Assembly (NCBI RefSeq): GCF_000971155.1
Contig: NZ_BBLX01000001.1
Location: 351,879-415,878 of the forward strand
Length of the DNA: 64,000 bases
Direction of reading: 5' to 3'
Source: Demequina maris
Lineage (GTDB): Bacteria; Actinomycetota; Actinomycetes; Actinomycetales; Demequinaceae
Part shown: one piece after another, positions 1,551 through 60,597 of the stretch
Layout of the letters: the number at the start of each line of letters is the position of its first letter
How positions within the stretch are numbered: position 1 is the stretch's first letter
Program-made: the position numbers and the translations under genes
The notes under the pieces: generated by a model
The model's input: only the letters and a program-made list of their open reading frames with translations
What the model was told of the DNA's origin: nothing
The model's database searches: none

Positions 1551-2498
1551 TCAGCGCGCGAGCGCTCCGCCGCTGCGGACCCAGGACACGAGGGCCTGAT
1601 ACTGCTCGCGCAGGAGGCCCGCATCGTGACGGTCGAGCGTGCCCGGCTCGCGCACCGGCGCGACGACGTAGCGCGCCCCCCAGGACTCGACGGCGGCCCT
1701 CAGGGCCGCATCGTCCTCCGAGGCGTCGACCAGGACCGCCGCGGGGACGAAGCCGGGCGCGGCGTCGCGCAGCGCCGCGAGGTCGTCGACGCGGTCGGTG
1801 CCCGCGGTCTCCTCGTCCTCGTGGGCGATGTTGAGCGTGAGGATCGTGCGCGGGCCGGCCTCGACGAGCGCGGCCGCGACGCGCGGCACCAGGAAGTGGG
1901 TGAGCACGGACGTGTACCAGCTGCCGGGTCCGAGGATCACGGCGTCGGCCTCAGCGATCGCCTCGAGCGTGGCGGCCGGCACCGCGGGTTCGACCGGGTC
2001 GATCGCGAGGCAGCGCATGCGCCCGGGCGCCGTCGCCACTGCGACCTGTCCGACCACCCGTTCGACGCGGTCGCCGACCGCGAAGTCCGCGCTCACCGTG
2101 ATGGGCTCGGTGGAGACGGGCAGGACGCGGCCCTCGCAGCGCAGCAGCCGCGCGACCCAGTCGAGGCCCTCGACGATGCCGCCGGTACGGTCCCACAGGC
2201 CCGCGATGAGGAGGTTGCCGACCGCGTGCCCGTCGAGCGGGCCGCTGGTGGCGAAGCGCCACTGGAGGACGTCGCGCCAGGTGCGGCCCCAGTCGGTGTC
2301 CTCGCACAGGGCGGACAGCGCCATGCGCAGGTCGCCCGGCGGCGGCACCGGCATCTCGGCGCGGATGCGGCCGGACGAGCCGCCGTCGTCGGCCACGGTG
2401 ACGACCGCGGTGAGCGTCTCGCAGGCACCGCGCAGCGCGGTCAGCGAGGCGTAGAGCCCGTGCCCCCCGCCGAGGGCGACGACGTGCGGACCCGTCAT
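1551..2498 (-). CDS. yvcK: YvcK/CofD-like gluconeogenesis factor
   Basis: A 315-residue member of the CofD/YvcK family. YvcK proteins bind UDP-sugars and are needed for normal cell shape and growth on gluconeogenic carbon sources; in mycobacteria the homologue is CuvA. Visible signatures are the N-terminal nucleotide-binding loop [14 protein letters not shown], the [14 protein letters not shown] motif and [19 protein letters not shown] near residue 190. The ATG at 2498 overlaps the rapZ stop (ATGA), implying translational coupling. The gene carries one copy of the dispersed GCATCGTCC word at 1708-1716. It is not the F420-pathway CofD, judged by the rapZ/whiA context. Confidence 0.93.
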
Positions 2499-3415
2499 CG
2501 CGGCTCCCGGTCACGATGCGTGACGCGCACCTGGTAGCCGCGGTCGCCGAGGACCCGGCCGAGCTCCTCGGCGATCGCGACCGAGCGGTGCTTGCCGCCC
2601 GTGCAGCCCACGCCGATGGTGACCGAGTGCTTGTCGTGCGCGCGGTAGCGGTCGAGGACGCCGGCGATCACGTCGGCATAGCCGTCGACGAAGTCGCGCG
2701 CGCCGTCGGACGCGAGCACGTAGTCCCGCACGGCGGGGTCGAGGCCGGTGAGGGGGCGGAGCTCGGGCTCCCAGTGCGGGTTCTGGAGGAAGCGGACGTC
2801 GGCGACGAAGTCGGCGTCGTGCGGCGAGCCGTTCTTGAAGCCGAAGGACTGGACGTTGACCTGGAGCGGGCGCTCGGTCTCCCCCGCGACCTCGGTCATG
2901 ACGTCGCGGAGCTGGTGGACGTTGAGGCGGCTGGTGTCGACCACCTCGGTGGACCGCTCGCGCACCGCCGTGAGCGCGGCGCGCTCGCGCGCGATCCCCT
3001 CGAGGATGGTGCCGTCGCCCTGCAGCGGGTGCGGGCGGCGAGCCTCCTCGAAGCGGTGCACGAGGGCGGCGTCCGAGGCGTCGAGGAACACGAGGCGCAC
3101 GGTGATGCCGCGCTCCTCGAGGTCGTCGAGGACCGCGATGACGTCCTGGAAGAAGTCGCCGCCGCGCACGTCGACGACGGCGGCGAGGCGGTGGTGGCGT
3201 CCGCGCCCGACCATCTCGACGAGGCCGGCGAGCAGCTGCGGCGGCAGGTTGTCGACCACGTACCAGCCGAGGTCCGCCAGCGCGGCGGCCGCCTTGGTGC
3301 GGCCGGCGCCCGACATGCCCGTGAGCACCATGACCTCCGCGTCGACGCCCGTCATGTCCAGCGCGGGGCGCGGGATGCCGGAGGGGAAGGTGACCGGGGG
3401 GACCTCGTCCATCAT
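2495..3415 (-). CDS. rapZ: RapZ/YvcJ nucleotide-binding protein
   Basis: A 306-residue P-loop protein of the RapZ (YvcJ) family. In E. coli RapZ is an RNA adaptor controlling glmS via small RNAs; in Gram-positives it hydrolyses GTP/ATP and is linked to cell-envelope metabolism. The Walker A loop [14 protein letters not shown] lies near residue 33 and the VVDNLPP motif follows. The C-terminal domain has [18 protein letters not shown], the conserved segment of the RNA/metabolite-binding half. ATG at 3415 overlaps the uvrC stop (ATGA); a second ATG follows directly. A longer in-frame reading back to 3739 would run through uvrC and is rejected. Confidence 0.94.
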
Positions 3416-5295
3416 GCGTCCAGCATGCCAGCCTCGCCCCGCAGCGCCTGGTAGACAGTCCGGGCGGTGCCCGCCCCCACGCCGGGGACGAGCGCGATCT
3501 GCTCGATCGAGGCCTCCTTGAGCCGCGCGAGCGAGCCGAAGTGGGTGAGCAGCGCCTTCGCGCGGCCCGGGCCGACGCCGGGCACCTCGTCCAGCTGGGA
3601 CACCTTCATCGCCTTGGTGCGCTTGGCGCGGTGGTGCTTGATCGCGAAGCGGTGGGCCTCGTCGCGGACCCGCTGCAGCAGGTACAGGGCCTCGGAGCCG
3701 CGCGGCAGGATCACGGGGAACTCGTCGCCCGGCACCCACACCTCCTCGAGGCGCTTCGCGAGGCCCACCACCGCGATCTCGGGCACGCCGACCTCATCCA
3801 GGGTCCGCCGCGCCGCGTTCACCTGCGGCAGGCCGCCGTCGACCACGACCAGCTGCGGCGGGTACGCGAAGCGTGCGGTCTCGCGCTCCTCGGGCGGGAG
3901 CTGCGACTCCTCGAGGTAGCGGCGGAAGCGGCGCGACAGCACCTCGCGCATCGCCTCGGTGTCGTCGACCGCGTCCGCGATCGAGAACTGCCGGTACTCG
4001 GGCTTGCGCGCGATCGCGTCCTCGAACACCACCATCGAGCCGACCTGGTTGGTGCCCTGGGTGTGCGAGATGTCGTAGCACTCGATGCGCAGCGGCGCCT
4101 CGGTCAGGCCGATCGCCTCCTGCAGCTCCTGCAGCGCCGCCGAGCGTGTGGTGAGGTCGGAGGCGCGCTTGAGCCGGTGCTGCTCGAGCACCTGCCGGGC
4201 GTTGCCGTGCCCGGTCTGCGCGAGCTCCGCCTTCTTGCCGCGGGCCGGGACGCGCATCGTCACCTTGGTGCCGCGCAGCCCGCTCAGCCACTCGGTGAGG
4301 ATCGCGGAGTCGTCGGGCAGGTGCGGCACGAGCACCTCGGGCGGGATCTCCTCGGCGTCGGCGGCGCCGTACGCCTCCTCGAGGAGGCGCACGACCATCC
4401 CCGCCGGCCCCAGCGGCTCGGGCTTGTCGACCACCCAGCCCCGCTCGCCGGCGATGCGGCCGTCGCGCACGTGGAAGACGTGTGCCGCGGCCTCGAGCTC
4501 GTCGTCCTCGAGAGAGAAGATGTCGGCGTCCACGCCCGGATCGAGCACGATCGCGTTGCGCGCCATCACCGAGTCGAGCGCCCGCAGCCGGTCGCGTGCG
4601 CGCGCGGCCGCCTCGAAGTCCTCGCGCTCGGCTGCCGCCTGCATCGAGGCGGTCAGGTCGCGCACGAGCGACTTCGCGTCGCCCGCGAGGACCTGGCAGG
4701 CCCGCTCGGCGAGCGCCTGGTGGTCCTCCGGGGAGATGCGTCCCACGCACGGCGCCGCGCACTTGTCGATGTAGCCGAGCAGGCACGGCCGGCCCTGGCG
4801 CTCCGCCTTGCGGAACACCCCGGGCGCGCACGTGCGCACCGGCAGCGCGGTCAGCAGCGTGTCGACGGTCTCGCGGATCGCCCACGCCTTCGCGTACGGC
4901 CCGAAGTAGCGCACGCCCTTCTTGCGCTCGCCCCGCATCACCTGCATCCGCGGGAACTTCTCGTTCATCGTGATCGCGAGGTACGGGTAGGACTTGTCGT
5001 CCCGGAACACCACGTTGAAGCGCGGGTCGTACTGCTTGATCCACGTGTGCTCGAGGATGAGCGCCTCGACCTCGTTGCGCACCACCGTCCACTCCACGGA
5101 CGCGGCGGTGGTCACCATGGCACGCGTGCGCGGGTGGAGCTGCGCGGGGTCCTGGAAGTAGTTCGCCAGGCGCGCCCGGAGGCTCTTCGCCTTGCCCACG
5201 TACACCACGCGGCCGTGCGGGTCCCGGAACCGGTACACGCCCGGCTTGGTCGGGATCGTGCCGGTGGCGGGGCGGTACGAGGCGGGGTCGGTCAC
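3412..5295 (-). CDS. uvrC: Excinuclease ABC subunit C
   Basis: A 627-residue nucleotide excision repair nuclease that makes the 3' and 5' incisions around a UvrB-marked lesion. In order it has the GIY-YIG domain ([20 protein letters not shown], residues about 19-38), the UVR motif that binds UvrB near 215, the central RNase H-like endonuclease half ([20 protein letters not shown] near 400, [10 protein letters not shown] near 480) and a C-terminal double helix-hairpin-helix ([13 protein letters not shown] and [13 protein letters not shown]). GTG at 5295 is preceded by TAGGCT with a 6-nt gap, a leaderless promoter that supports this start. It is the first gene of uvrC-rapZ-yvcK-whiA and follows uvrA by 16 nt. 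Confidence 0.97.
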
Positions 5296-5301
5296 GTCGC
5301 C

Positions 5302-5307
5302 AGCCTA
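5302..5307 (-). promoter_or_regulatory. Leaderless -10 for uvrC
   Basis: TAGGCT lies 6 nt upstream of the GTG at 5295, placing the transcription start at or next to the start codon. Confidence 0.6.
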
Positions 5308-5311
5308 GGGA

Positions 5312-8152
<2,841 letters not shown>

Positions 8153-8262: not shown

Positions 8263-8272
8263 GCATCGTCCC
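8263..8272 (+). repeat. Dispersed word GCATCGTCCC, single intergenic copy
   Basis: One copy of the recurring word in the 146-nt gap between the divergent uvrA and YciI-like genes, 26 nt upstream of the YciI-like start. Confidence 0.6.
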
Positions 8273-12117: not shown

Positions 12118-12126
12118 GGACGATGC
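12118..12126 (-). repeat. Dispersed word GGACGATGC, intergenic copy
   Basis: A copy between the coaE stop and the uvrB promoter, 6 nt downstream of the coaE stop codon. Confidence 0.6.
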
Positions 12127-14446: not shown

Positions 14447-14480
14447 GGGACGATGCGCCTGGTCGCCGGCGCATCGTCCC
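14447..14480. repeat. Perfect 13-bp hairpin built from two copies of the dispersed word
   Basis: GGGACGATGCGCC (14447-14459) and GGCGCATCGTCCC (14468-14480) form a perfect inverted repeat with an 8-nt spacer, 15 nt after the pfkA stop. It probably serves as the pfkA terminator, but its sequence is that of the family rather than of a random stem. Confidence 0.85.
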
Positions 14481-15531: not shown

Positions 15532-18189
15532 GTGTCCAGCGGTGCGCCAGTCACCGCCCGTTCCGACGTTGACATCGAGAGGGACGCTGAGGTCGCCGGC
15601 GGCGCGCATCTCCTCCCTGAGGATGGCCTCGACCGCCTCGCGTTCACCGGGGGCTGTCTCGACCACGAGCTCATCATGCACCTGAAGTACCTGGCGTGAT
15701 GCCAGACCTTCGTCCTTGAGACGCGATTCCACGCCCAGCATCGCGCGCTTGATCAGGTCCGCCGCCGAGCCCTGGATGGGCGCGTTGAGCGCGACCCGCT
15801 CCGCGATGTCGCGGCGCTGACGGTTGGTGGAGGTCAGATCCGGCACGTAGCGGCGCCGGCCGAAGATGGTCTCCGTGTAGCCGTCCTTGCGCGCCTGCAC
15901 CACCACCGCGTCCAGGTACTCGCGCACCCCGCGGAACCGCGCGTAGTAGTCGTCCACGAGCGCCTGCGCGGCGTTGACGGAGATGCCCAGCTGACGCGAC
16001 AGCCCGAAGGTCGACAGCCCGTACGCGAGGCCGTAGGACATCGCCTTGACGTGCGAGCGCATCTCCGGCGTGACGTCCTCCGGCGCGACGCCGTACACGC
16101 GCGAGCCGACGAAGCGGTGCAGGTCCTCCCCCGCCGCGAACGCCTCGATGAGCCCGGCGTCGCCCGACAGGTGCGCCATGATGCGCATCTCGATCTGCGA
16201 GTAGTCAGCCGTGACGAGCGTCTCGAAGCCCTCGCCCACCACGAACGCCTCGCGGATCCGGTGCCCCTCGGGCGTGCGGATCGGGATGTTCTGGAGGTTC
16301 GGGTCCTTGGAGCTGAGGCGCCCGGTCGCGGCGACGACCTGCGAGAAGGTCGTGTGGATGCGGCCGTCCGGCTGCACGGCCTGCGCGAGCGTCTCGATGA
16401 TCTGCGACAGCTTGGACGCGTCACGATGCGCGAGCAGCGCCGTGAGGAACGGGTGCGGCGACTTCTCGTTGAGGTCGTGCAGGGACGATGCGTCGGTCGA
16501 GTAGCCCGTCTTGATCTTCTTGGTCTTGGGCATGCCCAGGCGGTCGAACAGCACCTCCTGCAGCTGCTTCGGCGAGCCGAGGTTGACCCGGTCGCCGCCG
16601 ATCGCGGCGTACGCGTCCTCGGCGGCGCGGTCCGCGCGGCCCCGGGCCTCGTCGGACAGCGCGCCCAGCTGCTCGCGGTCGACCGCCATGCCGGCGTGCT
16701 CCATGCGCGCGAGCACGGACACGAGCGGGATCTCGAGATCGGTGTAGAGGTCCGCCATGCCGCGCTCCGCGACCATCGGGTCGAGCACGGCGGCCAGGGC
16801 GCGCACGTGCGCGGCGCGCTCCCCCGCGCCCTCCGCGGCCGAGCCGCCCAGCCCGAGGTCGAGCTCGCCCGATGCGGCGGCCGAGTCGAGCGTGAGCCCG
16901 AGGTGGCGCTGCAGGATCTGGTCGAGCTCGAAGCCGCGCTGGTCCGGGTTCACCAGGAAGGCCGCGATCTGGGTGTCCCCGACGATGCCCGCCAGGTCCC
17001 ACCCGCGCGCCTGCAGCGCGTGCCACGCGTCCTTCGCGGCGTGCAGCACCTTGGGCACCGACGCGTCCGCGAGCCAGGCGGCCAGCGCCTTCTCGTCGGC
17101 CGGGCCGAGCGCGGTGAGGTCGATGCCCCACGCGACGTCGGCGGCGTCGGCGACGCCGAGGGCCCACGCGTCGGCGTCCGCGCCGCCGCGGCCGTCGACG
17201 TGGACCGCGACGGGGCCGGTCATCGCGGTGACGGCGCCCACGGCGCCCTCGGTGCGCACCACCACGGCGGCGGTCTCCACGGCCGCCTCCGCCGCATCGT
17301 CCCCCGCCGCGAACGGCAGCAGCCGGTCGCGCAGCGTGCGGAACTGGAGCGCGTCGCAGACCTGGTGGATCGCGGCGACGTCGCCGCCGGTGTACTCGAG
17401 GTCCTCGACCGGCACCTCGACCTCGAGATCGGTGAGGAGGTGGTTGAGCTCGCGGTTGAGGCGGACCTGGTCGACGTGGTCGCGCAGCGACTGGCCGGCC
17501 TTGCCGGGCACGTCCTCCGCGCTGTCGAGGATGCCGGCGAGGCCGCCGTAGACGCCGATCCACTTGGCGGCGGTCTTGGGGCCCACGCCGGGCACGCCCG
17601 GGAGGTTGTCGCTGGTCTCGCCGACCAGCGCCGCCATGTCGGGGTACTGCTCGGGGCGCACGCCGTACTTCTCCTGCACCGCGTCCGGGGTGAAGCGCAC
17701 GAGGTCGGACACGCCCTTGCGCGGGTAGAGCAGGGTGACGTCGTCGTTGACGAGCTGGATGGTGTCGCGGTCGCCCGACACGACCAGCACGCGCAGGCCC
17801 GCCTCGCGCCCGAGGCGCGCGTAGGTCGCGAGGAGGTCGTCGGCCTCGTAGCGCGGCTTGTCGACCGCGGCGACGCCGAGCGCGCCGAGCACCTCGCGGA
17901 TCAGCGGCACCTGGGGCTCGAACTCCGGCGGGGTCTCGTCGCGCGTGCCCTTGTAGGACGGCAGGCGCTCGGTGCGGAACGTGCCGCCCGGCAGGTCGAA
18001 GGCCACCGCGAGGTGGGTGGGCTGGTGGTCCTTCATCAGCGTCGCGAGCATCGTGGTGAAGCCGTAGACCGCGTTGGTCGGCACCCCCGTGCTGGTCGCG
18101 AAGTTCTCGACCGGGAGGCCGAAGAAGGCCCGGAACGCCATCGACAGACCGTCGACGAGCAGGAGTGTTCCCTTGGTGGATTCGCTCAC
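15529..18189 (-). CDS. polA: DNA polymerase I
   Basis: An 886-residue repair and Okazaki-processing polymerase. The 5'-3' exonuclease domain (about 1-290) keeps LLVDGLSMAFRAFFG, SYKGTRDETPPEF and VSGDRDTIQLV. The middle domain (about 300-480) aligns only loosely with a 3'-5' exonuclease and lacks an obvious DxE motif, as in other actinobacterial enzymes, so proofreading is probably absent. The polymerase domain has VTADYSQIEMRIMAHL, NAPIQGSAADLIKRAM and LQVHDELVVE. GTG at 18189 is preferred over the ATG at 18210 because TAGGTT lies exactly 7 nt upstream and family length fits. Two copies of the dispersed word lie inside. Confidence 0.95.
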   Translation of the reverse strand: MSESTKGTLLLVDGLSMAFRAFFGLPVENFATSTGVPTNAVYGFTTMLATLMKDHQPTHLAVAFDLPGGTFRTERLPSYKGTRDETPPEFEPQVPLIREVLGALGVAAVDKPRYEADDLLATYARLGREAGLRVLVVSGDRDTIQLVNDDVTLLYPRKGVSDLVRFTPDAVQEKYGVRPEQYPDMAALVGETSDNLPGVPGVGPKTAAKWIGVYGGLAGILDSAEDVPGKAGQSLRDHVDQVRLNRELNHLLTDLEVEVPVEDLEYTGGDVAAIHQVCDALQFRTLRDRLLPFAAGDDAAEAAVETAAVVVRTEGAVGAVTAMTGPVAVHVDGRGGADADAWALGVADAADVAWGIDLTALGPADEKALAAWLADASVPKVLHAAKDAWHALQARGWDLAGIVGDTQIAAFLVNPDQRGFELDQILQRHLGLTLDSAAASGELDLGLGGSAAEGAGERAAHVRALAAVLDPMVAERGMADLYTDLEIPLVSVLARMEHAGMAVDREQLGALSDEARGRADRAAEDAYAAIGGDRVNLGSPKQLQEVLFDRLGMPKTKKIKTGYSTDASSLHDLNEKSPHPFLTALLAHRDASKLSQIIETLAQAVQPDGRIHTTFSQVVAATGRLSSKDPNLQNIPIRTPEGHRIREAFVVGEGFETLVTADYSQIEMRIMAHLSGDAGLIEAFAAGEDLHRFVGSRVYGVAPEDVTPEMRSHVKAMSYGLAYGLSTFGLSRQLGISVNAAQALVDDYYARFRGVREYLDAVVVQARKDGYTETIFGRRRYVPDLTSTNRQRRDIAERVALNAPIQGSAADLIKRAMLGVESRLKDEGLASRQVLQVHDELVVETAPGEREAVEAILREEMRAAGDLSVPLDVNVGTGGDWRTAGH

Positions 18190-18208: not shown

Positions 18209-18619
18209 ATGTCAGACGCCGAGGTCTCCCTGCCGCCGCTGCCCGAGGACGGGCTCATCACCCGGATGGGCATCTCCATCATGACCGTCACCCCCGACAG
18301 CGCGACGGGGACGATGCCCGTCGAGGGCAACACGCAACCCTATGGCCTGCTGCACGGCGGCGCGTCCGCCGTGCTCGCCGAGAGCCTCGCCTCGCTCGCC
18401 GCCGCCGCGCACGCCGGCCCCGACGGCATCGCGGTGGGCGTCGACCTCAACATGACCCACGTCCGAGGGGCGCGCACCGGCACCGTGACGGGTGTCGCCA
18501 GCGCGATCCACCGGGGCCGCACCGTGGCGGCGTACTCCATCACGATCACGGACGAATCGGGCGCAACCGTGTCCGTCGGACGCCTGACCTGCGCGATTCG
18601 GCCGCGCCATGCCACATGA
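18209..18619 (+). CDS. PaaI-type hotdog-fold thioesterase
   Basis: A 136-residue acyl-CoA thioesterase-like protein of the PaaI/4HBT family. The core LLHGGASAVLAESLASLAA is the hotdog active-site helix with its HGG motif; VDLNMTHVRGARTGTVTGVA and IHRGRTVAAYSITITDESG complete the fold. The natural substrate cannot be told from sequence. It is divergent from polA with start regions only about 20 nt apart, so the two promoters overlap. Placement of the ATG is a little uncertain because no clear ribosome binding site or leaderless -10 precedes it. Confidence 0.85.
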   Translation: MSDAEVSLPPLPEDGLITRMGISIMTVTPDSATGTMPVEGNTQPYGLLHGGASAVLAESLASLAAAAHAGPDGIAVGVDLNMTHVRGARTGTVTGVASAIHRGRTVAAYSITITDESGATVSVGRLTCAIRPRHAT

Positions 18620-18673: not shown

Positions 18674-19747
18674 GTGTTGGCCACTCTTGACCGGCGAGCG
18701 TTGCTCAGGGCAGCGCTCGTCTTCCTGATCGCGGCGGTGGGCATCACCGCGGTCCTGACGATGGGGGGCGCGGCCGAGGCCGCGACCGCCGAGACGGAGG
18801 CCGTGACCACCACGGCATCGTCCGGCGGCACCAACCTCCTCATCCAGAACCTGTTCAACGGCATCGTCTTCGGCCTGCTGCTCGCGCTCGCCTCGGTGGG
18901 TCTGTCGCTCATCTACGGCACCACCGGCCTGAGCAACTTCGCGCACGGCGAGATGGTGACCTTCGGCGCGATGATCACGTACTTCCTCGCGACCCCGCAG
19001 GAGGTGTCGTTCCCGCTCCTGCCGTTCTCGTTCTCCGTGAACTGGCCGTTCTGGCTCGCGGCGCCCGTGGGCATCGCGATCGCGACGGGCTTCGGCTGGA
19101 TCCAGGACAAGATCATCTGGAGCCAGCTGCGTCGCCGCCGCGTCGCGATGGTCCAGCAGATGATCGTGTCGATCGGCCTCTCGCTCGCCCTGGTGAACTT
19201 CATCCAGTGGTGGATGGGCGGCCGCCCGGTGCGCCTCGTCACGTCGATCGACCCCCGCAACCAGTACGGGCCGATCTCGGTGGGCAACGTCACGCTGATC
19301 TCGATGGCGATCGCCATCGCCGCGATCCTCGGCGTCGCGTTCTTCCTCCAGCGCACCCGCCTGGGCCGCGCGACCCGCGCGGTGTCCGACAACCCGGCGC
19401 TCGCCTCGGCGTCCGGCATCAAGGTCAACTCGATCATCCGCATCGTCTGGATGATGGCCGCCGGCCTCGCCGCCCTCGGCGGCATCCTGCTGGCGCTGTA
19501 CCAGCAGGGCATCGGCTTCGACGACGGCACCAAGCTGCTGATGATGATGTTCGCCGCGGTCACCCTGGGCGGCCTCGGCCATCCGTACGGCGCGCTCGTC
19601 GGCTCGCTCATCATCGGCATCGTCGCCGAGGTGTCCACCGTGTGGCTGCCGCCGGACCTGAAGTTCGCCACGGCGCTCGGCATCCTCATCATCGTGCTGC
19701 TGGTGCGCCCGCAGGGCATCCTCGGCAAGCCGGAAAGGGTCGGCTGA
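18674..19747 (+). CDS. livH: Branched-chain amino-acid ABC transporter permease LivH-like
   Basis: A 357-residue inner-membrane permease of the HAAT family. The first 60 residues form an extra segment not present in E. coli LivH: a hydrophobic helix (ALVFLIAAVGITAVLTMGG) and an Ala/Thr linker before the conserved core starting FNGIVFGLLLALASVGLSLIYG. The core has GLSNFAHGEM, RTRLGRATRAVSDNP and the EAA-like GGLGHPYGALVG segment, with about eight helices. GTG at 18674 has a strong ribosome binding site. It is the first gene of livHMGF, 1 nt before livM. The solute could be branched-chain amino acids or a related amide such as urea. Confidence 0.92.
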   Translation: MLATLDRRALLRAALVFLIAAVGITAVLTMGGAAEAATAETEAVTTTASSGGTNLLIQNLFNGIVFGLLLALASVGLSLIYGTTGLSNFAHGEMVTFGAMITYFLATPQEVSFPLLPFSFSVNWPFWLAAPVGIAIATGFGWIQDKIIWSQLRRRRVAMVQQMIVSIGLSLALVNFIQWWMGGRPVRLVTSIDPRNQYGPISVGNVTLISMAIAIAAILGVAFFLQRTRLGRATRAVSDNPALASASGIKVNSIIRIVWMMAAGLAALGGILLALYQQGIGFDDGTKLLMMMFAAVTLGGLGHPYGALVGSLIIGIVAEVSTVWLPPDLKFATALGILIIVLLVRPQGILGKPERVG

Positions 19748-22343: not shown

Positions 22344-22822
22344 GTTCTGTGGCGGGCTCCCCCGTGCGTCGCAACCGGCGTACAGGACCGTCCCCGACCG
22401 CATCGTCCCTGGTCCCGTCCCGCACGCACGAGGGCGTACGCCGGTTCGCGCGCGGTGGGACGATGCGGTGGCGGGGTGGGTGGTCGCGGGGACGGGGCGA
22501 CACGGATCGGCACCACAGGGGCCTCGCGCCCGTCCCAGGCGACACGGATCGTCACCACAGGCGCGAGGCGCCCTCGGGCGGAGGGCGGCGGCCGGGTCGA
22601 ACCCGCGTGGCGGATCGCAGCCGTACTGCTGGTGGTGCGTTCGGCGCCGTTCTCGGGGCCTCCCGTGCCGCTGAGGGTGCAGCCGGCGGTGACACGTGGA
22701 GAGTCGCGGGGGCGGACGCTCAGCGGTACCGCTGACCCTCGCGACGCCTCTCTCCGCACCATGAGCGGTATCTCCGGCCACGGGGCCGGTGGGAGCGTCA
22801 AGAAGGCCGGAGGGCAAACGGA

Positions 22823-22850: not shown

Positions 22851-22871
22851 CCGCGTGTGCGAGGTCCTGGA

Positions 22872-24146: not shown

Positions 24147-24162
24147 GTTTCTTCCTCCCACT

Positions 24163-24278: not shown

Positions 24279-24293
24279 CCGAACTGAGCACGG

Positions 24294-37897: not shown

Positions 37898-39102
37898 GCG
37901 TCCCCCTCCGGAAGCATGTCGAACCATCGCGCGGCCTGCTCGACGTCCTTGTCGCCGCGGCCCGAGAGCGTCACGAGCAGCGTCGCGCCGGGGCCCAGCT
38001 CGTTGCCGAGCCGCAGAGCGCCCGCGAGGGCGTGCGCCGACTCGATCGCGGGGAGGATGCCCTCCGTGCGCGTGAGGAGGCGGAAGGCCTCCATCGCCTC
38101 GGCGTCGGTGACGGGCCAGTACTCGGCGCGGCCGATGCTCGACAGCCACGTGTGCTCGGGACCGACACCGGGATAGTCCAGCCCCGCGGAGATGGAGTGC
38201 GAGGGCTGGGTCTGGCCGTCCTCGTCCTGGAGGATGTACGACATCGAGCCGTGGAGGATGCCCGGGCGCCCGCCGGTGAGGGTCGCCGCGTGGCGGCCCG
38301 TGTCGACGCCGTCGCCCGCCGCCTCGCAGCCGATGAGCCGCACGCCCGCATCGTCCAGGAACGCGTCGAACGAGCCGATCGCGTTGGAGCCGCCGCCCAC
38401 GCACGCGAGGACCGCGTCCGGGAGGCCGCCGAGCGCGAGCATCTGCTCGCGGGCCTCGACGGAGATCACCCGCTGGAAGTCGCGGACCATGGCCGGGAAC
38501 GGGTGGGGGCCGGCGGCGGTGCCGAACACGTAGTTGGTGGTCTCGACGTTGGTGACCCAGTCGCGGAACGCCTCGTTGATCGCGTCCCGGAGCGTGCGGG
38601 TGCCGGTGGCGACGGGGATCACCTCGGCGCCGAGGAGGCGCATGCGCGCGACGTTCAGCGCCTGCCGCTCGGTGTCCTCCTCGCCCATGTAGATCACGCA
38701 CTCGAGGTCCATGAGCGCCGCCGCGGTCGCGGTCGCGACGCCGTGCTGGCCCGCGCCGGTCTCGGCGATCACGCGGGTCTTGCCGAGGCGCTTCGTGAGC
38801 AGCGCCTGGCCGAGCACGTTGTTGATCTTGTGCGAGCCGGTGTGGTTGAGGTCCTCGCGCTTGAGGAACACGCGCGCGCCGCCGGCGTGGGCGGCGAAGC
38901 GCGGCACCTCGGTGACGATCGAGGGGCGTCCCGTGTAGTCGCGGGCGAGCCGCTCGAGCTCGCCGGTGAACGCGGGGTCGATGCGGGCCTTGTCGTACGC
39001 GTCGGTGAGCTCGTCGAGCGCGGCCATGAGGGCCTCGGGGACGAAGCGGCCGCCGAACTCGCCGAAGTACGGCCCGGGGGCCGACTGGAGGGAGTCCGTC
39101 AC
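37894..39102 (-). CDS. trpB: Tryptophan synthase beta subunit
   Basis: A 402-residue PLP enzyme condensing indole with serine to tryptophan. It begins near [16 protein letters not shown]. The PLP Lys is in [18 protein letters not shown], the catalytic Glu in [14 protein letters not shown] and the phosphate site in [12 protein letters not shown]. Start GTG at 39102 overlaps the trpC stop (GTGA). One dispersed word at 38348-38356 encodes Leu-Asp-Asp-Ala. Confidence 0.96.
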
Positions 39103-40255: not shown

Positions 40256-41803
40256 TCAGTCTAGCGAAGCCGCGGGCTCCGCCAGGCGCGACGCCGTGCT
40301 GATCGCGCGGATGAGCGCGGCCGCCTTGTGCTTGGTCTCGGCGTCCTCCGTCGCGGGCACGGAGTCCGCCACGATGCCGGCGCCGGCCTGGACGTGCGCG
40401 GTGCCGTCCTCGATGAGCGCGGTGCGGATCGCGATGGCCATGTCCATGTTGCCGGCGAAGTCGAGGTAGCCGACGGCGCCGCCGTAGAACGCGCGCCGCG
40501 TCGGCTCGATCTCGTCGATGAGCGCGATCGCGCGCGGCTTGGGCGCGCCGGACAGCGTGCCGGCCGGGAACACGGCGGTGAACGCGTCGAGCGCGCCGTG
40601 GGGCGCCTCGAGCGTGCCCACCACCGTCGAGCAGATGTGCATGATGTGCGAGTAGCGGTTGACGGTCATGAACTCGACCACCTCGACCGAGGTCGGCTCG
40701 CACACCTTGACGAGGTCGTTGCGCGCCAGGTCGACGAGCATGATGTGCTCCGCGACCTCCTTGGGGTCCGCGAGCAGCTCCTCCTGCAGCGCCTTGTCCT
40801 CGCCGGGGGTGGCGCCGCGCGGGCGCGAGCCGGCGATCGGGTACGTCGACACCCGGCCGTCCTTGACGGTGCACAGCGACTCGGGGCTCGCGCCGACCAC
40901 CGCGAACTCGCGGCCCCGGTCGTCCTCAAGCTGGAAGTAGTACATGTACGGGCTGGGGTTGAGGGTGCGCAGCACGCGGTAGACCTCGAGCGGCGTCGCC
41001 TCGCACGGCACGTCGAACCGCTGCGAGGGCACCATCTGGAACACCTCGCCGTCGCGGATCGCCTCCTTGGCGAACGCGACCGCGGCCTCGTACTCCCCCG
41101 GCGCGCTGCGCTGGGCCACGACGGGGTCGTCGCCCTCGGCGAGCACGGACACGGGTCCGGGCGTCGCGGCGGCGAGCTCGCGCTGCATGCGGTCGAGGCG
41201 CGCCACGGCGTCCGCGTACGCCCGGTCGATCCCGGTCTCCTGCGCGTCCGCGTTGACCGCGTTGGCGATGAGCCACACCGAGCCGTCGCGGTGGTCGATC
41301 GCGGCGATGTCCGTGGCGAGCAGCAGCAGCACGTCGGGCACGTCCAGCTCGCGCGGCGCCTTCATGGGCAGCGTCGGCTCCCACTGGCGGATGATGTCCC
41401 AGCCGAGCACGCCGACCATGCCGCCCGTGAGCGGCGGCAGCCCGTCGATGGCCTCGGAGCGCATCTCCTCGAGCACGTGCGCGATGGCCTCGAGCGGCGC
41501 GCCGTCGGCGAGGCCCACGGGCACGTCGCCCGACCACCGCGCATCGTCCCCGTCCACGGTGAGCATCGCGCGCGAGCGCACGCCCACGAACGAGAAGCGT
41601 GCGCGCGAGCCGTCGGGCTCGGCGGACTCGAGGATGAAGGTGCCGGGGCGCTCCTGCGCGAGCGCGCGGTAGACGGCGACGGGGGTGAGCGAGTCGGCGA
41701 GCACGCGGCGCACCACGGGGACCACGCGGTGGGACGCGCCGAGGTCGACGAAGCCCTCGAGCGTGGGCCAGGTCTGGCCCCACTCGACGTGCGCGGTGGT
41801 CAT
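40256..41803 (-). CDS. trpE: Anthranilate synthase component I
   Basis: A 515-residue enzyme making anthranilate from chorismate with ammonia from a TrpG partner, which is not in this window. The feedback site is visible near residue 50 as [18 protein letters not shown], so inhibition by tryptophan is likely. The catalytic part has [57 protein letters not shown] and [23 protein letters not shown] at 41803 overlaps the hisI stop (ATGA). One dispersed word at 41541-41550 encodes Gly-Asp-Asp-Ala. Confidence 0.95.
40258..40263 (-). promoter_or_regulatory. Candidate -10 for the HGxxPAAW-like gene
   Basis: TAGACT overlaps the last codons of trpE and gives a leader of about 30 nt with GAGGAG. Confidence 0.4.
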
Positions 41804-42774: not shown

Positions 42775-42830
42775 GCATCGTCCCGCTGCCAAGGAGCGAC
42801 ACGGGTGACGCTCCCCACACCGGACGATGC
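42775..42830. repeat. Inverted pair of dispersed words after the ABC exporter genes
   Basis: GCATCGTCCC (42775-42784) and GGACGATGC (42822-42830) face each other across a 37-nt spacer that itself holds a GGAGCG/CGCTCC stem (42793-42814). The second word is 6 nt after the exporter stop codon. Confidence 0.65.
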
Positions 42831-48205: not shown

Positions 48206-49615
48206 TCAGGCGGGGTTCAAGGCGTCGAGGAGCGCGTCGACGCGCGCGTCCTCGGTGCGGAAGGGGTCCTTGAGCAGGACCGTCGTGCCGGACGAGCCCG
48301 CGATCTTGAGGTGCACCCAGTCGACGGTGAAGTCGCGGCCGGACTCGAGCGCGCGGGTGACGAACGCGCCGCGCAGCCGCGCGCGCGTGGTCTGGGGCGC
48401 GACGGTCATCGCGCGCTGGATGTCGGCCTCGGAGACGATGCGTCGGGCCAGCCCCTGGTCCTGGAGGCGGGAGAAGACGCCCCGCTCGGGCGACACGTCG
48501 TGGAACGCGAGCTCGAGGCGCGCGAGGCGCGCGTCGTCGAGGTCGCAGCCGAGCCTCTCGCGGTAGCGCATCACGAGGCGGTGCTTGATCGCCCAGTCGA
48601 GCTCGGTCTCGACGCCGGAGAAGTCCTGCGTGCGGACCGCGTCGACGCCGCGCTGCCACAGGTCGAGGATCCGGTCGACCTCCTCGGTGGGCGCGATGAC
48701 GCCGCCGAGGTGCGAGCGCACCAGGTCGATGTACTGCTGCTGGACCTCGACCGCGGTGAGGCGGCGGCCGTCGGCGAGCTCGACGGTCGCCTTCCCGGAC
48801 AGGTCGTGGGCGACGTCGCGGATGGCCTGCATCTCGCGCGCGAGCGTGAGCTCGGGCAGCACCACGCGCGCCTCCATGAGGCGCAGGATGAGGTCCGTCG
48901 CGCCCACCTTGAGCAGGGTCGTCGGCTCGGCCATGGTCGAGTCGCCGACGATGACGTGCATGCGGCGGTAGAGCTCGGCGTTCGCGTGCGGCTCGTCGCG
49001 GGTGTTGATCATGGGGCGCGACCGCGTGGTGGCGGAGCTGAGCCCCTCCCACATGTGGTCCGCGCGCGGCGAGAAGCTGTAGTGCGCGCCCGACGGCGTG
49101 CGCGTGATGGTGCCCGCGCCGGCGACGATCTGCCGGGTGACGAGGAACGGCAGCAGCGCGGAGGCGAAGGCCTTGAAGTCCGCGCGGCGGCGCACGAGGT
49201 AGTTCTCGTGGCAGCCGTAGCTGTTGCCCGCCGAGTCGGTGTTGTTCTTGTAGAGGTGGATGGTGCCCTCGACGCCTGCGGCGCGCAGGCGCTCCTCTCC
49301 CCCGGCGACCAGGTCGTGGACGATGCGCTCGCCGGCCTTGTCGTACGCGATGAGGTCGGTGAGGGTGTCGCACTCCGCGGTCGCGTACTCGGGGTGCGCG
49401 CCCACGTCGATGTAGAGGCGCGACGCGTTCGGCAGGAACACGTTGGACGAGCGGCCCCACTGGACGACCGAGTGGAACAGGTGGCCGGCGACCTCCTCCG
49501 GCGTGACCGGGCGCGCGGCGCCGGTGTCGAGGTGGAGGCCGAACTCCGTCTCGAGCCCGAAGATGCGGCGGGCGGGGTCGACGTCGAGGGGCGGCGGGAT
49601 GTCGGTGGAGAGCAT
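48206..49615 (-). CDS. pafA: Pup-protein ligase PafA
   Basis: A 469-residue carboxylate-amine ligase that joins the C-terminal Glu of Pup to Lys of target proteins. It is of the glutamine-synthetase-like fold: RRIFGLETEFGLHLDTG gives the ATP/metal Glu residues, RLYIDVGAHPEYATAECDTLTDLIAYDK contains the catalytic-base Asp, TIHLYKNNTDSAGNSYGCHENYLVRR follows, and RPMINTRDEPHANAELYRR comes later. It lacks the extra loop of Dop. ATG at 49615 is used although it adds about 15 residues before the family core. It follows pup directly; the prcBA genes often found between them are absent. Confidence 0.95.
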   Translation of the reverse strand: MLSTDIPPPLDVDPARRIFGLETEFGLHLDTGAARPVTPEEVAGHLFHSVVQWGRSSNVFLPNASRLYIDVGAHPEYATAECDTLTDLIAYDKAGERIVHDLVAGGEERLRAAGVEGTIHLYKNNTDSAGNSYGCHENYLVRRRADFKAFASALLPFLVTRQIVAGAGTITRTPSGAHYSFSPRADHMWEGLSSATTRSRPMINTRDEPHANAELYRRMHVIVGDSTMAEPTTLLKVGATDLILRLMEARVVLPELTLAREMQAIRDVAHDLSGKATVELADGRRLTAVEVQQQYIDLVRSHLGGVIAPTEEVDRILDLWQRGVDAVRTQDFSGVETELDWAIKHRLVMRYRERLGCDLDDARLARLELAFHDVSPERGVFSRLQDQGLARRIVSEADIQRAMTVAPQTTRARLRGAFVTRALESGRDFTVDWVHLKIAGSSGTTVLLKDPFRTEDARVDALLDALNPA

Positions 49616-49833: not shown

Positions 49834-51345
49834 TCCGCCGATGAGCGCGTCGAGGAGGGGGTGACGCGCCGCGGCCGGCTCGTCGAGGTGGACCACCTCG
49901 AGGTGCCCGTGGTCGGTCTCGCGGTCGAGCACCACGGTGGACCAGCCGGCCGCGTCGACGAGGTCGGGGCGGGCCGCGACGATGCCGCCGCGCAGGCGCG
50001 CGCGGGTGTCCTGGGGAGCTCGGGTGGTCGCGGCCGCGACCTCGTCGTCCGAGGCGAGCCGCTCGACCTGGCCCGCGTCCGCGAGCCGCGTCGCCCACCC
50101 GTCCCCGAGGCGGCTCCACTGCAGGTCCATCGCGGCGAGCCGCGCATCGTCCCACGGCAGGCCGTCGGGGTGGCCCTCGCTCGCGTGGCGCGCGCGCAGC
50201 CTGCCGAGGAGCTGGAGCTTGGCGACCCACTCGACCTCGCGGGCGGCGGAGAACAGGTCGCCGCCGAGCCGCTCGAGGACGCCCTCCCAGCGGGCGAGGA
50301 CGGCGGCGTCGCCGGCGTCGGTCGCGTAGCTGCGGCAGATCTCGAGCAGCGCGCGCTGGATCTCGAGCGCCGTCGCGCTCTCGCCGGACGCGAGCTCGAG
50401 GCGCGCGCGCAGCTGCAGGTCGCGGGAGACCGTCTGCACGTCCTCGACGGGGGTCGCGAGCTCGAGCGCGTCGAGGCGCTCGTCGTCGGCCTCGATCGCG
50501 GACAGCACGAGCGACGTGGTGCCGATCTTGAGGAACGTCGCGACGTCGAAGAGGTTCGCGTCGCCGATGATGACGTGGAGGCGGCGGTAGCGGTCGCGGG
50601 CGGCGTGCGGCTCGTCGCGCGTGTTGACGATGGGGCGGCGCAGGGTGGTCTCGAGGCCGATCTCGGCCTCCATGTAGTCCGCGCGCTGCGACATCTGGAA
50701 GCCCGGCTCCTCGCCGAACTGCCCGAGGCCCACGCGTCCCGCGCCGGTGTAGACCTGGCGGGTCACGAGGTGCGGCGTGAGGCGCCGCGCGAGGTCGTCG
50801 AACGCGACCGCCCGGTCCACCAGGAAGTTCTCGTGGGTGCCGTAGCTCGCACCCTTGCCGTCGACGTTGTTCTTGTACAGCTCGACACGTGAGCCCTCGT
50901 CCTCGGCGTAACGCGCCGCGGAGGCCAGGGCGACGGCGTCGCCCGCGCGGTCCCAGACCACCGCATCGTGCGCGCCGGTGACCTCGGGGCCCGAGTACTC
51001 GGGGTGCGCGTGGTCGACGTAGAAGCGCGCGCCGTTGGCGAGCACCGCGTTGAGGTGGGCGGGGTCCTCCCACGAGCCGCGGCGGCGGCGCAGCGTCACC
51101 CGGCCCTCGGCGGCGTCGAACTCGGACGCGTCGGTGAGGAGGTCCTCGGAGGCCCCGAGGCGCGAGCGGCGGAAGCCGCGCTGGTCCTGGAGCGGGTCCT
51201 CACCGCCGTAGTCCCAGCGGCTGGTGGCCTCGCCCGCCCACGCGCGGCACGCCGTGACCAGGCGCGACGACATGAGGATCGGGTTGGCGCGCGGCTCGTC
51301 CGGGTCGACGATGCCGTACTCGGTCTCGATCCCGACGACCCTCAC
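49831..51345 (-). CDS. dop: Deamidase/depupylase Dop
   Basis: A 504-residue paralogue of PafA that deamidates Pup-Gln and removes Pup from proteins. RVVGIETEYGIVDPDEPRAN opens the fold. The characteristic Dop loop follows (about 35-75, SRWDYGGEDPLQDQRGFRRS). The nucleophile/base Asp is in RFYVDHAHPEYSGPEVTGAH. VELYKNNVDGKGASYGTHENFL and RRPIVNTRDEPHAARDRYRR are shared with PafA. GTG at 51345 lies 1 nt after the arc stop. One dispersed word at 50144-50153 encodes Trp-Asp-Asp-Ala. Confidence 0.95.
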   Translation of the reverse strand: MRVVGIETEYGIVDPDEPRANPILMSSRLVTACRAWAGEATSRWDYGGEDPLQDQRGFRRSRLGASEDLLTDASEFDAAEGRVTLRRRRGSWEDPAHLNAVLANGARFYVDHAHPEYSGPEVTGAHDAVVWDRAGDAVALASAARYAEDEGSRVELYKNNVDGKGASYGTHENFLVDRAVAFDDLARRLTPHLVTRQVYTGAGRVGLGQFGEEPGFQMSQRADYMEAEIGLETTLRRPIVNTRDEPHAARDRYRRLHVIIGDANLFDVATFLKIGTTSLVLSAIEADDERLDALELATPVEDVQTVSRDLQLRARLELASGESATALEIQRALLEICRSYATDAGDAAVLARWEGVLERLGGDLFSAAREVEWVAKLQLLGRLRARHASEGHPDGLPWDDARLAAMDLQWSRLGDGWATRLADAGQVERLASDDEVAAATTRAPQDTRARLRGGIVAARPDLVDAAGWSTVVLDRETDHGHLEVVHLDEPAAARHPLLDALIGG

Positions 51346-53832: not shown

Positions 53833-53842
53833 GCATCGTCCC
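53833..53842 (+). repeat. Dispersed word GCATCGTCCC, single intergenic copy
   Basis: Located 3 nt after the stop codon of the M50 protease gene, between it and trmI. Confidence 0.6.
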
Positions 53843-56185: not shown

Positions 56186-56875
56186 CTAGGTGTCCTCGCC
56201 GAGCTCGTCGACGACCTCTCCCCCGAGGATCCGCGCCAGCCCGTCGACGTCGAGGCCCGCGAGCGACCTCACGCGGCTGAGACCGAGGCGCGCCTCGATG
56301 GGCACCAGCCGTCGCACGCCGATGGTCGCCGCCCCGGAGGCATACGCCGAGCCGACGCCCGCGGGCGAGTCCTCGAGCGCGACGCAGTCGGCGATGTCGA
56401 CGCCGAGCCGCTCGGCCGCGGTCAGGTAGGGCTCGGGGTGCGGCTTGCCGTGGGTGACCTGGTCGCCCGTGACCACGACCGCGAACGCGTCGGGGGCGCG
56501 CGAGACGAAGGCCTCGGCGAGCATCGAGTACGACATGGTCACGAGCGCGCACGGGATGCCCGCGGTGACGACGTCGTCCAGCAGCGCCCGCGCATCGTCC
56601 ATCCACGGCGTGCGCTGGCGCACCTGGGCCGTGACGCGGCCGAGCAGGTAGGTGATGATCTCGTCGGGGTCGAGCGCGACGCCGCGGTCGATCATGATCT
56701 GCGCCGAGACGGACAACGGGTTGCCGACGAGCTGCAGGCCGTCCTCGTGGGTCCAGCCCACGCCGAACTTCCTGGCGAGCTCGGTCTCCGCCGCGATCCA
56801 GTACGGCTCCGAATCGATCAGGGTGCCGTCCATGTCCCACAGCACGGCGGCCGGGAGCGTCGCCTTCTCATTCAT
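56186..56875 (-). CDS. HAD-superfamily phosphatase (beta-phosphoglucomutase-like)
   Basis: A 229-residue haloacid dehalogenase hydrolase. Motif I is AVLWDMDGTLIDSEPYW (nucleophile Asp and second Asp), motif II VTMSYS, motif III with Lys in TGDQVTHGKPHPEPYL, and motif IV DCVALEDSPAGVGSAYA. A helical cap domain lies between motifs I and II. The class includes phosphoglycolate phosphatase and beta-phosphoglucomutase; the substrate cannot be assigned. ATG at 56875 is 8 nt after TAGACT, an element shared head-to-head with the PAC2 gene promoter. One dispersed word at 56592-56600 encodes Met-Asp-Asp-Ala. Confidence 0.9.
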   Translation of the reverse strand: MNEKATLPAAVLWDMDGTLIDSEPYWIAAETELARKFGVGWTHEDGLQLVGNPLSVSAQIMIDRGVALDPDEIITYLLGRVTAQVRQRTPWMDDARALLDDVVTAGIPCALVTMSYSMLAEAFVSRAPDAFAVVVTGDQVTHGKPHPEPYLTAAERLGVDIADCVALEDSPAGVGSAYASGAATIGVRRLVPIEARLGLSRVRSLAGLDVDGLARILGGEVVDELGEDT

Positions 56876-57785: not shown

Positions 57786-57811
57786 GCGCATCGTCCGGCG
57801 GGACGATGCGC
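57786..57811. repeat. Perfect 11-bp hairpin of two dispersed words between convergent genes
   Basis: GCGCATCGTCC (57786-57796) and GGACGATGCGC (57801-57811) are separated by 4 nt. It lies 19 nt after the PAC2 stop and 3 nt after the uppP stop, so it could act as a bidirectional terminator. Confidence 0.85.
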
Positions 57812-58745: not shown

Positions 58746-59708
58746 ATGCAGCGCGCACGGATCGGCACCACGGGACTCGAGGTGTCGCGTCTGGCGCTCG
58801 GCACGATGACGTGGAGCCGCGACACCGACGCCGAGGAGGCGGGCGGCCAGCTCGACGCGTTCCTCGACGCGGGCGGCACGCTGCTCGACACCGCCGCCTC
58901 GTACGCGGACGGGGGTTCCGAGGAGCTGATCGGCCGCATGCTCGGCGGCTCCGTCTCCCGCACCGACATGCAGATCTGCACCAAGGCCGGCATCCGCCGC
59001 ACCGCCCACGGCGGCATGGTCGACGCCTCCCGCGACACGATGCTCGACACCCTCGACGCGTCGCTGCGCCGGCTCGGCACGGACCACGTCGACGTGTGGC
59101 TCGTCCACCAGTACGACGCCGGCACGCCGCTTGACGAGACCCTCCACGCGCTCGAGATCGCGGTGAACAGCGGCCGCGCCCGCTACGTGGGCGTCTCCAA
59201 CTACCCCGGCTGGGCGACCGCGCACATCGCGGCCCTCGCCGACCGGCGCCCCACGCTCGCCGCGACCCAGGTGGAGTACTCGCTGCTCCAGCGCGGCATC
59301 GAGCGCGAGGTGGTGCCCGCCGCATCGTCCCTGGGTCTGGGCGTGATGGCCTGGTCGCCGCTGGGACGCGGCGTCCTCACCGGCAAGTACCGCACGTCCA
59401 TCCCCGCGGACTCGCGGGCCGCCTCCGAGCACCTCGCGGGCTTCGTCGAGCCGTACCTCGACGACCGCGCCGGCAGCATCGTCGAGGCGCTGGCGATCGC
59501 GTCCGAGGGCCTCGGCGTGACGCCGCTCGAGACCGCGCTGGCGTGGGTGCTCGCACGTCCGTTCGTGGCGACCGCCGTCGTGGGCGCGCGGACCGCCGAG
59601 CAGCTGCTCCCCTCCCTCACCGCGGCGACGCTCAAGCTGCCGCCCGCGATCGTCGACGCGCTCGACGAGGTCTCCGCCATCGAGCTCGGATACCCGGAGC
59701 GCCGATGA
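58746..59708 (+). CDS. Aldo/keto reductase
   Basis: A 320-residue NADPH-dependent (beta/alpha)8 reductase. The catalytic tetrad is visible: Asp and Tyr in TLLDTAASYADGGSEELIG, Lys in MQICTKAGIRR and His in VDVWLVHQYDAG. YVGVSNYPGW and AWSPLGRGVLTGKY are family motifs, and VVGARTAEQLLPSL binds the cofactor. The physiological aldehyde or ketone is not known. ATG at 58746 is leaderless. One dispersed word at 59322-59331 encodes Ala-Ser-Ser. Confidence 0.92.
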   Translation: MQRARIGTTGLEVSRLALGTMTWSRDTDAEEAGGQLDAFLDAGGTLLDTAASYADGGSEELIGRMLGGSVSRTDMQICTKAGIRRTAHGGMVDASRDTMLDTLDASLRRLGTDHVDVWLVHQYDAGTPLDETLHALEIAVNSGRARYVGVSNYPGWATAHIAALADRRPTLAATQVEYSLLQRGIEREVVPAASSLGLGVMAWSPLGRGVLTGKYRTSIPADSRAASEHLAGFVEPYLDDRAGSIVEALAIASEGLGVTPLETALAWVLARPFVATAVVGARTAEQLLPSLTAATLKLPPAIVDALDEVSAIELGYPERR

Positions 59709-60117: not shown

Positions 60118-60124
60118 GGCTATG

Positions 60125-60130
60125 ACGTTA
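60125..60130 (-). promoter_or_regulatory. Leaderless -10 for the acidic protein gene
   Basis: TAACGT lies 7 nt upstream of the ATG at 60117. Confidence 0.5.
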
Positions 60131-60159
60131 CCCGCGGAACAGGTTGAATGGGAGGCGAG

Positions 60160-60417
60160 ATGAACCACGACGCACGCAGGACCGCCCACATCATCACCCC
60201 TCGACGCACGGCCGCCCCGGCGGACTCGCGCTTCGACTGGCGGGTGGTGGACATCCCCGTGGAGGTGACACGGGCGGAGGCGCGCGCGCTCCTGACGGAG
60301 CAGGCCGAATACGGCCGGTGGGACCTCATCCGCTCCCAGACCTTCATCGGCGGCGCGCGTCGCGTGTGGCTGCGCCGCCGCGTCATGAACGTGCGCCGCA
60401 CCGACGACGCGGCGTAG
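60160..60417 (+). CDS. DUF5703 family protein
   Basis: An 85-residue protein matching the actinobacterial DUF5703 pattern: FDWRVVDIPVEVTRAEARALLTEQAEYGRWDL followed by GARRVWLRRRVMNVRR. It is basic and soluble, with no known function. ATG at 60160 is chosen because GGGAGG lies 5-10 nt upstream; an ATG at 60148 would put that sequence inside the gene. It is divergent from the acidic-protein gene. Confidence 0.85.
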   Translation: MNHDARRTAHIITPRRTAAPADSRFDWRVVDIPVEVTRAEARALLTEQAEYGRWDLIRSQTFIGGARRVWLRRRVMNVRRTDDAA

Positions 60418-60597
60418 GGCTCGCGCACTCGCGCCTCCCCCTTCCGGAAGTCACACGTCTGACGACCGGCGCGCGCCGCCTGAACGGGGATCCCGGATCA
60501 CGTGCCGCCAGCGGTGTGACTTGCGTACCGCGGGACGATGCGCCGCTACCGCGGGACGATGCGGGGGTGGCGCGCGCGGGACTGCGCCCGGGTGCCG
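60418..60597. repeat. 180-nt intergenic region with tandem dispersed words
   Basis: TACCGCGGGACGATGCG occurs perfectly at 60526-60542 and 60547-60563 (21-bp period). AAGTCACAC (60448-60456) and GTGTGACTT (60514-60522) form a separate 9-bp inverted repeat with a 57-nt spacer. The flanking genes converge. Confidence 0.7.

Follow-up and report, generated by a model that had tools for sequence, protein, structure and literature searches.

A Probable DNA Uptake Sequence with Dialects in the Genus Demequina (Actinomycetota)

The Neisseriaceae and the Pasteurellaceae are described, in the excerpt of PMC12616744 used here, as the only families with known uptake sequences. The DNA uptake sequence (DUS) of the Neisseriaceae exists in dialects that share a fixed core, vary at a few bases around it, and agree with the phylogeny (PMC3630211, excerpt), and the uptake signal sequence (USS) of the Pasteurellaceae occurs in two dialect types that follow subclades (PMC12616744, same excerpt). 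The subject of this study is a short word, GCATCGTCC, in a 64-kb stretch (the window) of the genome of Demequina maris, a 2.97-Mb draft in 22 contigs. It shares with the DUS, as the latter is presented in the excerpt of PMC3630211, the form of a non-palindromic word of 10–12 bp that is the most abundant repeat, with hundreds to thousands of copies, for which intergenic DNA is permissive and which occurs in inverted pairs and in dialects, some genomes having two dialects at once; with the USS it shares a 9-bp core present in hundreds of copies (PMC12616744, excerpt). It differs from the DUS in sequence, in belonging to a Gram-positive phylum with about 70% GC, in its lower density in D. maris (769 copies of GCATCGTCCC in 2.97 Mb), and in having fewer inverted pairs and relatively more one-mismatch copies, and from the USS in sequence and in that no AT-rich flanking tracts were seen. 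Uptake sequences of this kind have a dedicated minor-pilin receptor (ComP or ComN) whose variants match the dialect, and a comparable receptor is presumed in Demequina. We consider it probable that the word, in the longer form CGCATCGTCC(C), functions in natural transformation as a DNA uptake sequence with dialects. With somewhat less assurance, we favor an independently evolved sequence-specific uptake system with at least three dialects, which would add a third to the two known cases, as the first from a Gram-positive phylum, and whose reader would lie outside the known pilus cluster.

In the window, GCATCGTCC has 26 copies distributed over both strands, as compared with a mean of 2.0 and a maximum of 6 in 100 dinucleotide shuffles. 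The original prediction, made from the sequence of the window, listed 25 of these, every one at its exact position, and overlooked the copy at 18309 on the minus strand; its estimate of about one expected copy was lower than the shuffles give, and the strong excess over chance that it claimed is confirmed. Genes were called with a script of our own. By these calls, 13 of the 26 copies are intergenic in a window that is 93.4% gene-covered and 6.6% intergenic, in agreement with the 13 of 25 copies in 6–7% intergenic DNA given previously. No published name was found for the word, which had also been described as matching no named motif, and no title on the subject was among the literature matches listed. 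The exact copies, in window coordinates, are as follows.

1708..1716, plus strand, inside a called gene
5933..5941, plus strand, inside a called gene
8263..8271, plus strand, intergenic, divergent gap
12118..12126, minus strand, intergenic
14448..14456, minus strand, intergenic, inverted pair with 14471
14471..14479, plus strand, intergenic, inverted pair with 14448
16483..16491, minus strand, inside a called gene
17294..17302, plus strand, inside a called gene
18309..18317, minus strand, inside a called gene, base −1 is G
18815..18823, plus strand, inside a called gene, base −1 is G
22400..22408, plus strand, intergenic, convergent genes, inverted pair with 22458
22458..22466, minus strand, intergenic, convergent genes, inverted pair with 22400
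37656..37664, plus strand, inside a called gene
38348..38356, plus strand, inside a called gene
41541..41549, plus strand, inside a called gene
42775..42783, plus strand, intergenic, inverted pair with 42822
42822..42830, minus strand, intergenic, inverted pair with 42775
49318..49326, minus strand, inside a called gene
50144..50152, plus strand, inside a called gene
53833..53841, plus strand, intergenic
56592..56600, plus strand, inside a called gene
57788..57796, plus strand, intergenic, convergent genes, inverted pair with 57801, possible hairpin
57801..57809, minus strand, intergenic, convergent genes, inverted pair with 57788
59322..59330, plus strand, inside a called gene
60533..60541, minus strand, intergenic, same-way pair with 60554
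60554..60562, minus strand, intergenic, same-way pair with 60533

A 15-kb part of the window (22467–37655) is free of the word. It was considered as a mobile island and rejected, having normal GC and core genes (pyruvate kinase, glutamate synthase, and lgt).

Genome-wide, the copies of GCATCGTCCC (390 on the plus strand and 379 on the minus strand) compare with 4 (2 on each strand) for the reversed word, an imperfect control because most genomes of the order contain more GCATCG-like words than reversed ones. When 464 kb of the genome were sampled, CGCATCGTCC ranked first by z among the 10-mers with 12 or more copies, with 223 copies observed and 7.0 or 23.9 expected from Markov models of order 3 and order 5, respectively. 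The base at −1 of the word is C in 90% of 248 sites. Because of these two observations, CGCATCGTCC(C), which extends the word first reported by one base to the left, is the better unit. C is also preferred at the base after the word and, weakly, at the third and fourth bases before the leading C. The core is fixed, single changes at positions 2–8 of CGCATCGTCC occurring at chance level (121 seen and 116 expected). The degenerate form CGCATCGKCC occurs 1653 times in the D. maris genome, as compared with 44 times for its reversal, and at most 208 times in each of 295 other Actinomycetota genomes, which include no other Demequina and some of which are nearly 10 Mb. The original prediction had named genome-wide counts near the Markov expectation as grounds for abandoning the word; the counts are far above that background. 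Three other words were mildly enriched in the window and the 464-kb sample: CTGCGCGA (212 vs. 69), AGCGCCTC (188 vs. 63), and CGGGGGAGA (34 vs. 2.9).

The 248 sites comprise 86 that are intergenic and 162 (65%) that lie inside genes, corresponding to densities of 2.16 per kb between genes and 0.38 per kb within genes. Because of this 5.6-fold difference, an artefact of codon usage was rejected. The density is highest in gaps between convergent genes (2.84 per kb), followed by codirectional gaps (2.49) and divergent gaps (1.29), and in codirectional gaps the copies are skewed toward the 3′ end of the upstream gene (19, 14, 7, 6, and 5 copies in successive fifths from that end). A promoter or regulator site was rejected because most copies are in genes and the divergent, promoter-bearing gaps are the poorest. 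There are 12 inverted pairs within 60 bp where about 4 are expected, and 6 same-way pairs where about 4 are expected; the spacing of the words is close to random (coefficient of variation 1.07). The inverted pairs in gaps and the 3′-end bias are features of a family of repetitive extragenic palindromic (REP) sequences, miniature inverted-repeat transposable elements (MITE), or terminators, of which a REP-like terminator had been proposed originally. However, a search around the word for a conserved flanking element found none beyond about 4 bases, most copies are single, with just those 12 inverted pairs among the 248 sites, and the majority are inside genes, which makes such a repeat family hardly credible.

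Within genes, the density of the word climbs with the GC content of the gene, from 0.15 per kb in the lowest fifth to 0.69 per kb in the highest, the word itself being no richer in GC than the genome. Genomes are labeled G000, G022, and so on, with G000 for D. maris and G022 for D. sediminis (NZ_AP027736.1). The pilus block of D. maris (G000:C22:138960-151547) has a low GC content (0.649) and no exact word over 12.6 kb, and a 20-kb stretch of D. sediminis with 61% GC and a phage-integrase gene has 1 word. This word-poor DNA is probably acquired.

The word is present on both strands without a strong replichore bias. The strand totals in D. sediminis are 279 and 270, as evenly divided as those of D. 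maris given above, and 20 even stretches of its chromosome contain 69 words on the plus strand and 60 on the minus strand. Relative to the direction of the replication fork, these stretches contain 76 one way and 53 the other (p 0.05), with the fork direction taken from an assumed origin at coordinate 1 and a terminus halfway, which the GC skew (positive to 0.675 Mb, negative at 0.81–1.35 Mb, and then mixed) did not clearly confirm. The first 100 plus-strand words listed span the first 982 kb at a rate of 1 per 9.8 kb, as compared with 1 per 9.7 kb overall. The slight one-way excess is in favor of a polar sequence, either a Chi-like recombination site or a segregation site resembling the FtsK-orienting polar sequences (KOPS), both of which the original prediction had considered. 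KOPS and Chi, however, are strongly polar and have no tie to intergenic DNA, whereas here the strands are balanced and the rate is even, and a polar sequence is therefore very improbable.

The family to which D. maris belongs is represented by 47 genomes, of which 44 are in the genus Demequina. GCATCGTCCC, designated the T form, has a bimodal distribution across these 44, with 452–945 copies in 16 genomes and 14–81 in 28. Among the 28 genomes poor in the T form, 20 contain 409–2018 copies of GCATCGGCC, designated the G form (reversed control, 44–110). AGCGTCGG[C/G]C, or AGCGTCGGSC, designated the R form, has 1201 copies in G037, 308 in G026, 255 in G034, and 141 in G033 (controls, 24–51). The thresholds that define these classes were set by us at over 400 copies, or over 140 for the R form. 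In the last four genomes (G004, G036, G039, and G043), there are 75–123 copies of the R form vs. 25–45 of its control and 68–282 of the G form vs. 34–114. Scans of k-mers in 14 of the 28 T-poor genomes, each sampled over 40–138 kb, gave top words of the same shape, CGCATCGGCC, GGCATCGGCC, AGCATCGGCC, and ACAGCGTCGG(G/C)C; in the samples of G004 and G043 no top word of such shape was found (G036 and G039 were outside the sample). All forms have in common the scaffold GC[A/G]TCG[T/G][C/G]C preceded by a dialect base, and the dialects differ at positions −1, 3, 7, and 8, with the base at −1 read from sampled DNA and often from few sites. In G004, which has no uptake-like word, overlapping 11-mers around AGTGTCGGTTCTGAG were each seen 6 times in 138 kb (samples L167-L169, L258, and L265-L267), which suggests a dispersed repeat.

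Several T-form genomes retain much of the G form (up to 664 copies in G017), and in the T clade described below genomes with more of the T form have less of the G form (rho −0.64, p 0.018, among 13 related genomes), a pattern that the replacement of one dialect by another would produce. Paired in the pattern GCATCGTCCC..GGGACGATGC, inverted copies were found in many Demequina species among the matches listed in GTDB 220, with one genome per species. A difference between species, together with a fixed core and a non-palindromic sequence, is in keeping with a site of methylation or a self-marking site of a restriction or defence system. Methylation targets are, however, not expected to be enriched 9- to 32-fold over Markov models or to prefer gene ends, and methylation alone explains neither the large enrichment nor the dialects, so that a site of this type is distinctly unlikely.

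A tree was constructed from AroE, PilB, AroC, AroB, and AroK of 39 of the 47 genomes, including 15 of the 16 T-form and 18 of the 20 G-form genomes, with a single outgroup; PilB lies inside the pilus cluster, and the entry for G043 is under half filled. The dialects cluster on this tree, in a T clade of 13 genomes and a G clade of 13 genomes that have support values of 100 and 99, respectively, in the Shimodaira–Hasegawa-like approximate likelihood ratio test (SH-aLRT). A third clade holds the T-form genomes G020 and G028, one R-form genome, and two word-poor genomes. The remaining five G-form genomes of the tree are placed outside the G clade. The five tree genes contain 140 copies of the T, G, or R form, a count that includes chance matches, at 46 distinct places, some of which carry the form of the class to which the genome belongs, with exceptions. 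At column 64 of AroK, five T-class genomes have the T form and four G-class genomes have the G form, the exceptions being two T-class genomes with the G form and one G-class genome with the R form.

The alignment of the window with D. sediminis covers 33 kb, over which 8 of 26 words have a counterpart at the same position in D. sediminis and 18 do not; a further 3 are present in D. sediminis alone. The absence of the word from non-homologous positions in close relatives was the other observation by which the word was to be abandoned, and this result did not refute it. These results bear on a binding site for a chromosome-organizing or nucleoid protein, that is, a word read inside the cell with a specificity that drifts between species. 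Such a site would agree with the genome-wide spread on both strands, the fixed core, and the intergenic bias, and would tolerate a reader outside the pilus cluster. It agrees poorly with the turnover of positions, the lower density in low-GC genes, and the replacement of dialects across whole genomes, because these require a drive that spreads copies of the word to new positions and selection by a structural protein is not obviously such a drive; nor does it fit the presence of little or no word in some genomes. We consider this explanation unlikely. In all, the word of the original prediction is real, genome-wide, and biased to intergenic DNA, and none of the four roles suggested for it, among which an uptake sequence does not appear, is the best fit.

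A DNA uptake sequence is the most economical mechanism. In this mechanism, a competence receptor on the cell surface would prefer the word as a short tag, and free DNA would enter through the type IV pilus, ComEA, and ComEC, with DNA of the cell's own kind favored. Biased uptake and recombination would pile the word up at permissive places (gene ends and tolerant codons), and drift in the preference of the receptor would slowly rewrite the genome into a new dialect (T, G, or R form). An uptake sequence would account for the enrichment, the lack of polarity, the permissive placement, and the turnover of positions, and also for the replacement of dialects, the loss of the word in some species, and its poverty in DNA that was probably acquired. 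Features by which uptake sequences are recognized were found here: an excess of copies on both strands, a high density between genes and at gene ends, inverted pairs, dialects that share a core, and competence genes. The dialects follow the phylogeny, imperfectly in that the T form has at least two origins. From these patterns, which are directly observed, we infer a bias in uptake, the transformability of Demequina, and the existence of a receptor.

The machinery that this would require is widespread in the family. ComEC and DprA are each present in 46 of the 47 genomes, T2SSE-family (PilB/PilT-type) ATPases in all 47, and ComEA in all 33 loci examined. The type IV pilus cluster of D. maris lies between aroE and aroC (C22:139258-150895) and encodes, according to Pfam, T2SSE ATPases, a PilC-type T2SSF protein, a prepilin peptidase, PilM, and three pilin-like proteins (N_methyl, one just under the Pfam cut-off); the names PilN, PilO, PilX, aroE, and aroC in this cluster are from position and our own reading. 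Demequina also has T2SSE-family ATPases outside the type IV pilus cluster, some of them possibly of the Tad/Flp kind. Micrococcus luteus, another member of the Actinomycetota, is likewise transformed through ComEA/ComEC and pili, although it uses Flp/Tad pili (PMC6370729, excerpt) in contrast to the type IV pilus cluster of Demequina. A text search for the term "uptake sequence" in two papers (PMC12849477 and PMC4322843) did not find it, and no uptake sequence in Actinomycetota was reported among the literature matches listed, which covered few subscription journals or preprints.

An extra pilin-like gene outside the cluster was found in at least about 30 of the 47 genomes, among the matches listed in a search for the N-methylation motif. 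This orphan gene is possibly the reader of the word. Its location in D. maris is as follows.

G000:C15:82323-82391, minus strand, extra pilin-like gene with N-methylation motif

In D. sediminis, the matches to the N-methylation motif outside the cluster are in a low-GC stretch with a phage-integrase gene. Two pilin-like genes were seen in the 61% GC stretch of this species that has a phage-integrase gene.

L223:528-1178, minus strand, pilin-like gene
L223:3-287, minus strand, pilin-like gene

The minor pilins of the cluster were considered as the sole reader and rejected, because the blocks differ between sister genomes that share a dialect (G000; G010 and G019). Exchange of the minor-pilin genes between species was also observed to be more frequent than change of dialect.

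Several observations weigh against an uptake sequence. Some concern the word itself. Its ends are looser than its core, positions 1, 9, and 10 together having 144 one-mismatch copies where 45 are expected, and over all positions there are 265 such copies where 161 are expected (200 permuted words have 59 on average and at most 466). Exact and one-mismatch copies together amount to 2.2 times the exact copies, as compared with 1.15–1.45 times in Neisseria, where the totals, to judge from the Kingella oralis example, include the exact copies (PMC3630211, excerpt). The inverted pairs are just about 3 times the expectation, and the word is no better kept in place than other 9-mers (8 of 26, as compared with 9 of 41 for 60 permuted words). 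The T form arose at least twice, a single origin being rejected by the approximately unbiased (AU) test (p 5e-5).

Other observations concern the machinery, which does not discriminate: the word-poor genomes G004 and G043 also carry ComEC, ComEA, DprA, and pilus genes. ComEC is spread over two reading frames in three word-rich genomes (D. sediminis, G037, and G011), owing to either a sequencing error or a real, recent loss.

G022:C1:423579-424363, ComEC in two frames
G037:C1:2039413-2040200, ComEC in two frames
G011:C1:296957-297743, ComEC in two frames

The minor-pilin block is of two broad types, assigned by eye, that have changed at least 9 times on the tree and have no link to dialect (7 type A and 8 type B in the T form, 6 and 11 in the G form; p 0.72). 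Because of this lack of a link, the minor-pilin set of the cluster is probably not what reads the word, should the word serve as an uptake tag. The candidacy of the orphan pilin meets with at least seven word-rich genomes (G006, G007, G014, G016, G032, G040, and G042) that have cluster pilins only among the matches listed, three for each genome. Finally, no report of uptake or transformation in Demequina was found among the literature matches listed, and no paper of the collection searched has both Demequina and "uptake sequence"; the sole paper found with both Demequina and "natural transformation" mentions them in unrelated places (PMC8339730, excerpt).

The occurrence of related words was also surveyed beyond Demequina. 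In 297 genomes of the order, GCATCGKCC has a density of 382–822 per Mb in 22 T- and G-form Demequina, 206–239 per Mb in four genomes of a family designated f20, and 187 per Mb in one genome of another, f11. Samples of f20 (G100, G240, and G270; L285-L290) have a top word of their own, CGATGCCGTC, with 17 copies vs. 0.37 in 69 kb, and no such top word was found in 61 kb of f11 samples. GGACGGCATCG has 107–423 copies in 10 of the 17 f20 genomes (G069, G100, G114, G127, G140, G153, G166, G192, G205, and G270), 13–70 in the remaining 7, and no more than 71 in any of the draw's 231 further genomes. GGACGGCATCG and the Demequina words have GGCATCG in common, which suggests that such systems are wider in Actinomycetota, with GGACGGCATCG being either a sister dialect or a coincidence. 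In Methylorubrum salsuginis and other Methylobacteriaceae, the same 10-mer forms pairs whose spacing is 23 or 62 bp at several loci. These Methylobacterium/Methylorubrum inverted pairs were rejected as the same system, M. salsuginis (G048) having just 126 copies in 5.3 Mb, and look like a separate structured repeat family unrelated to Demequina.

If the word is a DNA uptake sequence, this third, unrelated case would mean that self-tagging of DNA evolves repeatedly, also in bacteria that lack an outer membrane. It would predict natural transformation in Demequina, a genus for which none is reported in the literature searched. The genus, with its 44 genomes, would show the gain, replacement, and loss of dialects on a tree, and this history would make the debated origin of uptake sequences, by molecular drive or by selection for exchange with kin, directly testable.

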